64,000 bases of DNA from Meiothermus sp. GTDB taxonomy: Bacteria; Deinococcota; Deinococci; Deinococcales; Thermaceae. Positions 13,055 through 20,728 of the stretch are shown here, one piece after another. A program made the position numbers and the translations under genes. Positions within the stretch are counted from its first letter, which is position 1. Every line of letters starts with the position of its first letter. The stretch covers positions 62,001-126,000 of the forward strand of contig BPIL01000007.1 of the NCBI GenBank assembly GCA_026004095.1. The letters are read 5' to 3'. The notes under the pieces were generated by a model, which searched no databases, had not been told where the DNA came from, and worked only from the letters and a program-made list of their open reading frames with translations.

Positions 13055-15682
13055 TCAAATTTCGTCCTTAGCCAGGTCGTTGAAGCGCACGTGCTGGGCG
13101 TGGAACTGCAGCTCCACGGTGCCGGTGGGGCCGTTGCGCTGCTTGCCCACGATAATCTCGGCGATACCGGCCTTTTCGGAGTGGGGGTTGTAGTACTCGT
13201 CGCGGTAGATGAACATCACCAGGTCGGCGTCCTGCTCGATGGAGTTGTGCACGATGATGTTGTTGGCTATGAAGTTATGTGGGCCGGGAACCGTAAGGTC
13301 GAAAACCTCCTCCTGGCCCGCGGCCTCGATGGAGCGCACCGTATCCCAGTAAATATCGCTATCGGCCAGGCGCTCGAGCGCCTCCGAGCCCAAAGCGCCC
13401 GCCATGCGCCGGGTGCGTTCACGGCTCAGGTTCTGCCCGAAAAGGGTCGCGCCGGAATAAGCCATCCCCAAAGCCCGGTGCAGCTCGCGATGGCTCATGC
13501 CCGAAACGGCCAGGCTGGCTCTGGCCGGCTGCAGCCACAGCTCGAGCGGTATTACATCGCGGTTGGTATTCTCCTGGCGGCCCGTCAGATAGGCTTCCAC
13601 TGCGGCCAGCGCGCTTTGCTTTGAGCGTCCCACAGCCCCTACCTCCCGCACAAAGCGCAGTAGGTCGGACTGGCCGCTCAGCACCACGTGGAACTGATCC
13701 CGCCCCTTGCCTTTTTGCGGTACACGCTTAAGCCTGGCGTTGATACCCAGATACAGCAGCAGGGTTTGCACATCCTGCGCCAGGCCCTCGCTGCTACTGG
13801 CGTAGTACACAGCAGGGTAATGGTGCAGGGCAACACAGCCATCGGTAGACCACAGATGCCGCAGAAACCGGGCAAGCGCTGGGGCTGGCTGGGCAAACAC
13901 CTGCCTGGGGATGCGTTTTTCATGCGAACGCAAACCCCAGACCCCCAGACCCTCGAGCCACACAGCCACCGGGTTGCGCTTGCCCCAGCCCAGCCGGTGC
14001 GCCGCACTGAGGTAAACCTGCAACCATCCGCGCTCGGACTTAATTTTGGGAGCGATGGATTCGCCAAACACCGCCCTGGCCAGATCAACCACAGTTTGCG
14101 CCAGATCGGGGTCGCGTGTGGTGTACTGCAAGCTGTGCCGGGGCAGGGTACAGCCATCGCCGATGAGGTGGCCCAGCAGGGCCAGCTCCTCATCGCTGAG
14201 GCTCTGTTGCTGGGGCGAAGCCAGCCGCCTTGGCAGGGCCAGGTAATCCCCCACGGTCAGTTCGTCCAGCCGCTTCCAGCCTCGAGCGGTGAGGAACTTG
14301 TGGTTGGCCGTGGCACGAATGCTGCGCCCCAGCCGGGTGGTGAGGGTAAACACCGGCTTCACCCCCGTCGAGAAGGCACGGCTAACCCTGGCAGGCACCA
14401 GCTTTTGTGTGGCCTCGTCTAAAGCCAGGACTGCAAAACCGCTTTTTCCAACCAACCCGCGGATGGGCTGCCTCGAGCCATCCGCCATCTGTACCAGGCT
14501 ATCGCCGGTCAGGCAGCCCGACTCCCTCAGGTCGGAGAGCATGGGCCGCTTGTTGGGGCGCGACTCCACCGCCCGCGAAAGCTGCGAAAGCGCGATCACC
14601 GGCACGTCCAGCTCGCGGGCCAGGCCCTTGAGGCCGCGGGAGATCTGGGCGATCTCCTGCTGGCGGTTCTCGCCCCCGTTCTTACCCCCCCCAGGGCCAG
14701 ACATGAGCTGCAAATAGTCAATCACAATCAGACCCAGCCGGTGCTGGGCATGCAGGCGGCGGGCTCGAGCCCGGAGCTCCATCAGGGTGAGGTCGGAGGT
14801 ATCGTCGATCAGGATGGCCGCCTCAGCAATACGCCCGGCCACGTCCACCAGGCGCGAGAAGTCGCGGTCGGTGAGCTGGCCCTGCCGCAGGCGGTTCATG
14901 TCAATGCGGGCCTCGGAGCAGAGCATCCGGGTGACTAGCTGCACTGCGGGCATCTCCAGCGAGAAGATAGCCACCGCCGCGCCCTCGCCCCGCAGCGCCA
15001 CGTTTTGTGCAATGGTCAGGGCAAAGCTGGTTTTGCCCATGCTGGGACGGGCCGCAATGATGTTCAGCGAACCGCTGGTCAGGCCCCCAATCATGTTGTC
15101 AAGTTCGCGGAAGCCGCTCTTGACCCCGTCAACCTGGCCCTTGTTCTCGTAGAGCATCTGGATGTGCTCGAAGGTTTCGTGCACGAGTTCCTTCATGCTC
15201 TGGAACTCAGAGCGGGCCCCCTGGGTGGAGACCTCGAGCACCTTGCGCCCGGCCGCATCGAGGATGTCCTCGAGGCTTCCCTCCTCGTTGTAGGCCATCT
15301 TCATGGCCTCGCCCGCCGCCGCAATCAGCTTGCGCAGCGTCCATTTCTCGGCCACGATGCGTCCGTAGTAGTCGGCATAGGCGGCGGTAGGGGTCTGTTC
15401 CGAGAGGCCCACCAGGTACGAAAGGCCCCCCACATTCTCGAGCTCCCCGTTCTGGCGCAGCTCCTCCGAGAGCGTTACCAGGTCAACCGGATCACGCCGG
15501 GCCCGCAAGGCCACCATGGCCTCCCAGATTTTGCGGTGGGCTTCCTTGTAAAAAGCATCGGCGGCCAGCAGACCCTCGAGCCGGTCTAACACCTCGCTGT
15601 CCAGCAGCACCGAGCCCAGCACGCTGGCCTCGGCATCCAGGTTATGGGGGGGAACACGGCCCTCGAGCGGTGTGGTTGCCAT
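13055..15682 (-). CDS. dnaB: Replicative DNA helicase DnaB, interrupted by an intein
   Basis: Hexameric helicase of the replication fork. The 875-codon gene encodes exteins of 389 and 62 residues (451 together, normal for DnaB) around a 424-residue intein (residues 390-813). Extein features are the N-terminal DnaG-interacting domain (about 1-150), the Walker A ARPSMGKTS at 211-219, and the motif DYLQLMSGPG. The insertion falls in the conserved LRESG/SIEQDAD motif, the DnaB-b site also used by the Synechocystis DnaB intein. The ATG at 15682 has a good GGAGAG ribosome site. Splicing must occur to make a working helicase. Confidence 0.97.
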   Translation of the reverse strand: MATTPLEGRVPPHNLDAEASVLGSVLLDSEVLDRLEGLLAADAFYKEAHRKIWEAMVALRARRDPVDLVTLSEELRQNGELENVGGLSYLVGLSEQTPTAAYADYYGRIVAEKWTLRKLIAAAGEAMKMAYNEEGSLEDILDAAGRKVLEVSTQGARSEFQSMKELVHETFEHIQMLYENKGQVDGVKSGFRELDNMIGGLTSGSLNIIAARPSMGKTSFALTIAQNVALRGEGAAVAIFSLEMPAVQLVTRMLCSEARIDMNRLRQGQLTDRDFSRLVDVAGRIAEAAILIDDTSDLTLMELRARARRLHAQHRLGLIVIDYLQLMSGPGGGKNGGENRQQEIAQISRGLKGLARELDVPVIALSQLSRAVESRPNKRPMLSDLRESGCLTGDSLVQMADGSRQPIRGLVGKSGFAVLALDEATQKLVPARVSRAFSTGVKPVFTLTTRLGRSIRATANHKFLTARGWKRLDELTVGDYLALPRRLASPQQQSLSDEELALLGHLIGDGCTLPRHSLQYTTRDPDLAQTVVDLARAVFGESIAPKIKSERGWLQVYLSAAHRLGWGKRNPVAVWLEGLGVWGLRSHEKRIPRQVFAQPAPALARFLRHLWSTDGCVALHHYPAVYYASSSEGLAQDVQTLLLYLGINARLKRVPQKGKGRDQFHVVLSGQSDLLRFVREVGAVGRSKQSALAAVEAYLTGRQENTNRDVIPLELWLQPARASLAVSGMSHRELHRALGMAYSGATLFGQNLSRERTRRMAGALGSEALERLADSDIYWDTVRSIEAAGQEEVFDLTVPGPHNFIANNIIVHNSIEQDADLVMFIYRDEYYNPHSEKAGIAEIIVGKQRNGPTGTVELQFHAQHVRFNDLAKDEI
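13244..14515 (-). mobile_element. DnaB intein with LAGLIDADG homing endonuclease
   Basis: Self-splicing element of 424 residues within dnaB. Block A begins CLTGDS with Cys1; block B has the TANH motif; blocks F/G read VFDLTVPGPHNF and IIVHN, followed by the +1 serine. Two LAGLIDADG-type helices, LLGHLIGDG (about intein residues 113-121) and FLRHLWSTDG (about 230), keep their acidic residues, so the homing endonuclease may still be active. Both splice junctions look intact. End sequences resemble the Synechocystis DnaB intein closely, which implies lateral transfer between distant lineages at the same site. Confidence 0.95.
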
Positions 15683-19447: not shown

Positions 19448-20066
19448 CTATCGGGAATAGAACTCGATCACGAGCTGCTCATTTACAGGCAACGAGAGCA
19501 TTTCCCGTTCCGGCAGACGCAGGAAGCGCCCGGTCATAGTATCGGCGTTGAATTCCAGCCAAGGGAAGCTCTTGCGGTTCTTGAACCGCTCAACATTTTG
19601 CACGATAAAGTCAATCTTCTTGGCCTTTCTCCGATACCTTGATCTCGTCGCCCGGACGCACGCGGTAGCCAGGAATATTCACCCGCTTGCCATTGACCAG
19701 AATGTGCCCATGCCGTACAAACTGCCGGGCCTGGCGGCGGGTAGAGGCAATACCCATGCGGAAGACCACATTGTCCAGACGGCTCTCGAGCAGCTGCAAA
19801 AACACCGTACCAGTCACGCCCTTCTTGCGGCTGGCCTCCTCGAAGAGGTTGCGGAATTGGGTTTCTGAGACGTCGTAGATGAAGCGCAGTTTTTGCTTCT
19901 CGCGCAAACGCACCGCATAGTCGGAGGGGCGACCCTTGCGCTTCTGGCCGTGCTGGCCCGGCGCATAGGGGCGGCGATCCAGGTACTTTTGAACTTTTTC
20001 GGTCTCGGCGATGTTCACCCCAAGGTGACGCGCCACTTTTACGATTGGCCCTCTATAACGACCCAT
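19448..20066 (-). CDS. rpsD: 30S ribosomal protein S4, frameshifted in this sequence
   Basis: S4 is a primary 16S rRNA-binding protein and in many bacteria represses its own operon. The ATG at 20066 follows a GGAGGAG ribosome site. The first frame reads through the S4 RNA-binding domain but stops at 19611 after about 151 residues. In the neighbouring frame the missing tail (about 60 residues, ending [14 protein letters not shown]) is complete to a TAG at 19448-19450. One extra base in AAA at 19626-19628 explains it: the total is 619 bases, 3n+1. This is a sequence error, a true mutation, or translational +1 frameshifting. Confidence 0.93.
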
Positions 20067-20118
20067 TCTCTTCTCCTCCATCGGTCAGAAACGCGCTTTG
20101 TAGCCATATTCCCAACCG

Positions 20119-20165
20119 GGTTCCCAGGATCTGGGGGGTGAAGCAGGGAACCAAAGTTTCACCCC
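20119..20165 (-). promoter_or_regulatory. Pseudoknot-capable leader before rpsD (candidate S4 autoregulatory site)
   Basis: In the rpsK-rpsD spacer, two perfect inverted repeats interleave. Stem 1 is GGGGTGAA (20158-20165 as read on the mRNA) with TTCACCCC (20135-20142), 8 bp. Stem 2 is GGTTCCC (20146-20152) with GGGAACC (20119-20125), 7 bp. In mRNA order the loops are about 5, 3 and 9 bases, which suits an H-type pseudoknot ending about 40 bases before the rpsD ribosome site. S4-controlled mRNAs in other bacteria also use pseudoknots; the role here is an inference. Confidence 0.55.
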
Positions 20166-20175
20166 AGCAAAACAA

Positions 20176-20577
20176 CTAAACAGCCTTACGAAACTTCTTA
20201 CGGGGACGGCAACCGTTGTGCGGTGTGGGGGTGTCGTCCACAATCGAGCGCACCTGAAGTCCGCTGGCCTGCAGAGCCCGGATGGCTTGTTCACGGCCCG
20301 CCCCGGTTCCCCGTACCACCACTTCAACGCTGCTCATCCCATAGCCCTGGGCCTTCTTTGCAGCATCCATGGCTGCCAGTTGAGCGGCATAGGGCGTGCC
20401 TTTACGGCTGCCTTTGTAGCCAATAACCCCTCCGGACGACCAGGTCACGGGGTGCCCGTCGGTATCGGTGATGGTTACGATGGTGTTGTTGTAAGAGGCG
20501 TGAATAAATGCCTTACCCGTCGTAACCTGGCGCTTGATTTTTTTCTTGCGACTTGTAGCAGACTTTTTCTCGGCCAT
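20176..20577 (-). CDS. rpsK: 30S ribosomal protein S11
   Basis: Platform protein of the small subunit, contacting the mRNA exit channel. 133 residues with a lysine-rich N-terminus, core motif NNTIVTITD, and the typical C-terminus [16 protein letters not shown]. Alpha-operon order rpsM-rpsK-rpsD-rpoA is kept, but the spacers on both sides (151 bases from rpsM and 109 to rpsD) are long and structured. Its ATG (20577) follows a GAGGAGAG ribosome site. Confidence 0.98.
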
Positions 20578-20593
20578 ACTCTCCTCGTGCTCG

Positions 20594-20722
20594 CTCCACC
20601 ATAAATTAGGGGTGGAGGTCTATCAGGAGTCTCAACTGGCGTGTACACGATGCAGGTAATGCATCTGCGTTCCAGCTTTGTTCGACAGCGTCAACATCAA
20701 AACGTTGCCACCCAAGGGCAAC
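20594..20722 (-). promoter_or_regulatory. Structured rpsM-rpsK spacer with three hairpins
   Basis: Three perfect stems lie in this 151-base spacer: GTTGCC/GGCAAC (20704-20722, followed on the mRNA by GTTTTG), GATGCA/TGCATC (20649-20665, 5-base loop), and CTCCACC/GGTGGAG (20594-20617, 10-base loop) just before the rpsK ribosome site. They could act as a weak attenuator, processing site or protein-binding site; no promoter boxes were recognised. Confidence 0.4.
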
Positions 20723-20728
20723 AAACCC

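Follow-up and report, generated by a model that had tools for sequence, protein, structure and literature searches.

A pseudoknot before rpsD in Meiothermus as a candidate translational operator for ribosomal protein S4

Ribosomal protein S4 is an established regulator of the E. coli alpha operon and of B. subtilis rpsD (PMC10931766), and for Bacteroidia and Flavobacteria, predictions place S4 leaders immediately before rpsD (PMC7247131). The Bacillus rpsD leader is free of pseudoknots (PMC10931766); a GUAA in it mimics 16S rRNA (PMC7247131). Pseudoknots are found in the leaders of another ribosomal protein, S15, in E. coli and in mycobacteria, the mycobacterial one lying upstream of the start site (PMC10931766).

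The element described here lies in the rpsK-rpsD spacer of a Meiothermus genome, within a stretch of 64,000 nucleotides (hereafter, the window). Like the E. coli Alpha_RBS (RF00140), it is an alpha-operon pseudoknot by a ribosome binding site with S4 as the proposed ligand; however, the E. coli knot takes in the ribosome binding site of rpsM, which lies two genes upstream, whereas the Meiothermus element is a simple H-type knot between rpsK and rpsD, before the rpsD Shine-Dalgarno (SD) sequence, and does not include the rpsM site. It shares with the S4-controlled B. subtilis leader the location directly before rpsD, but Bacillus rpsD stands alone, whereas the Meiothermus gene is inside the alpha operon and its leader has a pseudoknot and no GUAA (the core reads GAA[A/C]CTT). 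The predicted S4 leaders of Bacteroidia and Flavobacteria (PMC7247131) are similar in preceding rpsD-rpoA-rplQ, in being confined to one lineage and in showing no rRNA imitation, although, to judge by the text of that paper, they are hairpins rather than a pseudoknot plus a hairpin. The S15 leaders (E. coli, mycobacteria, T. thermophilus) are likewise compact mRNA structures for ribosomal protein autoregulation, but they serve another gene and protein, and we saw no sequence relation to them. No Rfam family matched the element at E values up to 10 in the window, which excludes a known Rfam RNA as its identity, and nothing relevant was found in the relatives; with the same cutoff, the Alpha_RBS covariance model also found nothing. 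Nor did we find an earlier description in the literature searched (supplements and subscription journals were outside the search). The element is a new structural class within a known kind of regulator.

Architecture of the element

Read on the minus strand, the mRNA of the spacer is GGGGTGAA-ACTTT-GGTTCCC-TGC-TTCACCCC-CCAGATCCT-GGGAACC (20119-20165). A sequence-only reading of the window had proposed that two perfect inverted repeats of 8 and 7 bp interleave here, with loop lengths that fit an H-type pseudoknot, about 40 bases before the rpsD ribosome site. All of this agrees with what we found: the window copy has an S1 of 8 bp, an L1 of 5 nt, an S2 of 7 bp, an L2 of 3 nt and an L3 of 9 nt, and 39 nt separate the end of S2 from the SD sequence GGAGGAG. 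The geometry is kept in all 20 genomes that carry the element (S1 8 bp, S2 7-9 bp, L1 5-6 nt, L2 3 nt, L3 7-9 nt). The features, in the order in which they are transcribed, are:

20176..20577, minus strand: rpsK (S11); 10 nt lie between its stop codon and the pseudoknot
20158..20165, minus strand: 5' arm of S1, GGGGTGAA, read from the sequence; covaries with 20135-20142 (U-A, C-G and A-U replacements in relatives)
20153..20157, minus strand: loop L1, ACTTT, 5-6 nt among relatives, with [A/C]CTT invariant
20146..20152, minus strand: 5' arm of S2, GGTTCCC, identical in 20/20 genomes
20143..20145, minus strand: loop L2, TGC, 3 nt in every carrier
20135..20142, minus strand: 3' arm of S1, TTCACCCC, the covarying partner of 20158-20165
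20126..20134, minus strand: loop L3, CCAGATCCT, 7-9 nt, variable in sequence
20119..20125, minus strand: 3' arm of S2, GGGAACC, identical in 20/20 genomes
20082..20118, minus strand: hairpin P3 (arms 20109-20118 and 20082-20091), adjoining S2 without a gap and bridging pseudoknot and SD
20073..20079, minus strand: rpsD SD sequence GGAGGAG, read from the sequence; predicted to be unpaired in most main-clade members
19611..20066, minus strand: rpsD (S4), start codon 20064-20066; the window copy is frameshifted near the C-terminus

The rpsD frameshift falls near codon 147 (window 19611-19640) and leaves an ORF of 156 aa, compared with open frames of about 206 aa in relatives; because S4 is an essential protein, it is likely a sequencing or assembly error. 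Elsewhere in the window (13055-15682, minus strand), an ORF of 875 aa for a replicative, DnaB-like helicase carries an apparent intein-like insert (...SGCLTGDSLVQMADG ... NIIVHNS...).

When both strands of the 64 kb were searched for H-type pseudoknots with 8- and 7-bp stems, this site alone was returned, against a mean of 0.13 matches per strand in 30 dinucleotide-shuffled windows, and none of 5000 shuffled spacers contained such a knot, which excludes chance repeats as its origin. A rough energy sum at 37 C gave about -24 kcal/mol for the pseudoknot vs. -16.5 for the best nested fold, a figure that is indicative only since the pseudoknot penalty is a textbook constant. Nested folding of the whole spacer was unremarkable (z = -0.20), as expected from a program that cannot form pseudoknots.

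The P3 hairpin (CGG...CCG), which the sequence-only reading did not mention, is present in 16/16 main-clade Meiothermus. Its span varies from 18 to 88 nt, first to last base, while the distance from its end to the ATG is always 14-16 nt. Pairs 5 (UG/CG/AU/GC) and 7 (GC/CG/AU) covary. Four divergent members (L017, L018, L021 and L022) lack this P3. The knot is just 22-23 nt from the ATG in L017 and L018, where the ACCC end of S2 could pair with GGGT just after the ATG, beside TGTA/TACA around the SD; judging from these complementarities, a competing fold that hides the start site is possible. L021 and L022 have other predicted hairpins before rpsD, one of which, the 5-bp GAGAC-ATAGGAG-GTCTC, has the SD within its loop and in L021 is preceded by a strong hairpin, CGAGGATTTATCCGCGGATAAACCTCG.

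Distribution and covariation

We located the S4 gene in 61 genomes of the order and read the rpsK-rpsD spacer in each. The element was present in 18/18 genomes of Meiothermus, the genus of the window, and in 2/2 of g4, a sister genus, and in each case it lies between rpsK and rpsD. Named carriers include M. taiwanensis, M. granaticius, M. rufus, M. luteus and M. hypogaeus. Among the same 61 genomes it was absent from genera g2, g3 and g5 (Thermus-like and others) and from all other families sampled. Spacers without it are usually short (23 nt in g2, about 16-20 nt in g3 and g5). We infer that g4 is Allomeiothermus, g2 Calidithermus, g5 Thermus and family f4 the Marinithermus/Oceanithermus family. 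A covariance model, built from the same sequences that it then found, gave 20 strong matches over 111 genomes of the phylum (60-78 bits), all before rpsD; the next match reached 25.5 bits, and beyond the strong sites scores drop to chance level. With a single strong site per genome, a repeated mobile element is excluded. In a pattern scan over about 85,000 species, which fixed the S2 sequence so that members with a different S2 would escape, S1 occurred at the right spacing only in Meiothermus and one Thermaceae bin; a match in Lachnospiraceae proved to be a single long hairpin and not the knot, and the remaining matches had no S1. The description of the element as lineage-specific holds, with its range now given as Meiothermus and one sister genus.

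On a quick tree of the S13, S11, S4 and RpoA proteins, which does not fix the branching order of Meiothermus (g1), g2 and g4, the carriers require two changes, so that a single origin is also conceivable. The history would be either one gain before the g1/g4 split or a gain before all three genera followed by loss in g2.

Main-clade copies of the element share 96% identity, compared with 68% at rpsD third codon positions. In S1, GGGGTGAA/TTCACCCC is replaced by GGGGCGAA/TTCGCCCT, GTGATGAA/TTCATCAC(T) or GTGGCGAA/TTCGCCAT, all fully paired; that is, three pairs are altered on both sides, with 100% pairing in the 20 genomes. Under a phylogeny-aware null, which replayed the inferred changes along the protein tree and placed them randomly inside each arm, 0/20,000 runs matched the observed pairing. 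The same null gave 0/20,000 for P3, whose arms were structure-aligned and hence biased toward pairing. S2 behaves differently: its core, GGTTCCC/GGGAACC, is found in 20/20 genomes and its seven pairs never vary, outer pairs lengthen it in divergent lineages, and one outer pair, at columns 27/46, has changes on either side (GC, AU, UG) and is mostly unpaired. Being invariant, S2 has no covariation support, and its pairing is suggested instead by the strict conservation of two complementary strands. By the sequence-only reading, stems that were not conserved, or did not covary, in related genomes would have spoken against the element; instead, the knot is kept in 20/20 carriers, only before rpsD, and S1 covaries, S2 being invariant. 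Taken together, we regard the structure as almost certainly real and conserved, and it is likely a regulatory leader.

Ligand and mode of action

We favor the hypothesis that the S1/S2 pseudoknot and the abutting P3 form a cis-acting leader that serves as the translational operator of rpsD. By default, the SD would be open and S4 made; free S4 exceeding the capacity of 16S rRNA would bind the pseudoknot, at the invariant S2 and the CTT loop L1, and the bound protein would obstruct or trap 30S subunits at the SD next to it. Less rpsD would then be translated, and perhaps less of the downstream rpoA-rplQ as well. P3 may act as a fold-out spacer that brings the pseudoknot beside the SD regardless of its own length. 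A bound repressor protein would fit the fixed position relative to the SD and an SD left open by default, and the L1 CTT, S2 and L2 are conserved more strictly than base pairing requires, which points to a protein that recognises them. The most likely candidate is S4, since it controls the E. coli alpha operon and Bacillus rpsD and is predicted to act before rpsD in Bacteroidota; by this analogy, S4 is probably the ligand and rpsD translation its target, and the repression and its mechanism are inferred likewise. Counting against the S4-operator reading, Thermus-like genomes manage without the knot.

S4 binds the 5' domain of 16S rRNA. The best match of the element to the first 560 nt of 16S (GGGGTG-AAACTT vs. 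GGGGTGTAAACTT) did not stand out from shuffles (174/500), and a 16S change in the sister genus is not followed by the element, so that mimicry near the 16S GUAA region was rejected; a 13-nt match at 16S 948-961 was rejected as well, lying outside the 5' domain. Gene order never varies, and synteny therefore cannot single out a ligand. That is, neither rRNA mimicry nor synteny proves the ligand.

It is unlikely, but deserves consideration, that the element is a genuine leader of the ribosomal protein type with S11, RpoA, L17 or another cellular factor as its ligand, S4 acting elsewhere (e.g., at an older rpsK leader). The invariant gene order is compatible with this alternative, as is a different conserved element before rpsK that also occurs in genomes lacking the pseudoknot (below). 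However, we know of no established leader responsive to S11 or RpoA, S4 repeatedly regulates this operon in other phyla, and the knot is fixed directly before rpsD.

Of similarly low probability, if not slightly lower, is a structural element without a ligand that protects an mRNA end, sets a fixed rate of rpsD translation or couples rpsD to rpsK translation. Coupling is conceivable: S1 would be opened by a ribosome that terminates on rpsK about 10 nt before it, and the rpsK stop does lie 10-15 nt upstream of S1 in many Meiothermus; the constant distance from P3 to the SD also fits. Nevertheless, the spacing from the rpsK stop varies, with roughly 60-110 nt inserted in the sister genus, and the sequence conservation of L1, S2 and L2 past pairing needs suggests protein recognition instead.

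A transcription attenuator would account for strong stems between two cistrons but is very improbable, since no T run follows S2 or P3, P3 runs straight into the SD and a terminator scan reported no intrinsic terminator in the rpsK-rpsD spacer. Least probable of all is a signal that stimulates frameshifting or stop-codon read-through where rpsK ends: the 10 nt between stop and knot in the window come near the spacing of known signals of this kind, but across carriers neither the spacing (about 10 to over 100 nt) nor the stop codon (TAG, TGA, TAA) is kept.

A separate conserved element before rpsK

A further conserved motif, GCCAGNNGAKACTCC, lies in the rpsM-rpsK spacer, ahead of an SD and ATGGCC. 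The candidate rpsK leader to which it belongs (window 20578-20728, minus strand) is conserved as GCCAGNNGA[T/G]ACTCC, then SD and ATGGCC. The motif occurs in nearly all genomes of f1 (Thermaceae) and all of f4, pseudoknot-free ones included, usually as one copy before rpsK; in families f2, f3 and f5 it is absent or without an rpsK site. In Thermus-like genomes, ATACTC/GAGTAT and GGCC/GGCC pairing covers the rpsK start codon. No Rfam family matched this element, which is unrelated to the pseudoknot and older.

The Meiothermus rpsK leader is enlarged upstream by a conserved AAAGCTGGAACGTAGATGC...GCATCGTGTACACGCCAG, able to form a long stem (window 20600-20680, minus strand), and has a CTCCACC...GGTGGAG hairpin just before the rpsK SD. 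A terminator-like hairpin, GTTGCC...GGCAAC then GTTTT, lies just after the rpsM stop (window 20703-20724, minus strand) and is not kept in all relatives.

With a separate conserved element in the same operon, the assignment of S4 to the knot is less certain than the sequence-only reading held: S4 could act at the rpsK element, with a different ligand for the knot, or there could be two operators in the operon. We tentatively entertain, at somewhat less than even chances, that the Meiothermus alpha operon has two unrelated operators, namely an older hairpin at the rpsK start, shared by Thermaceae and the neighbouring family, and a younger rpsD pseudoknot-plus-hairpin gained in one branch. If so, the operon would have been caught while gaining or relocating its S4 operator.

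In conclusion, the element provides a compact S4-leader candidate, clear-cut in its occurrence across sister genera, in a thermophile near Thermus, a genus with known 30S structures. S4 regulation has arisen separately in several phyla. Should S4 bind the pseudoknot, it would be another independent RNA fold recognising the same protein, and the rpsK element nearby would let operator turnover be followed within one operon.
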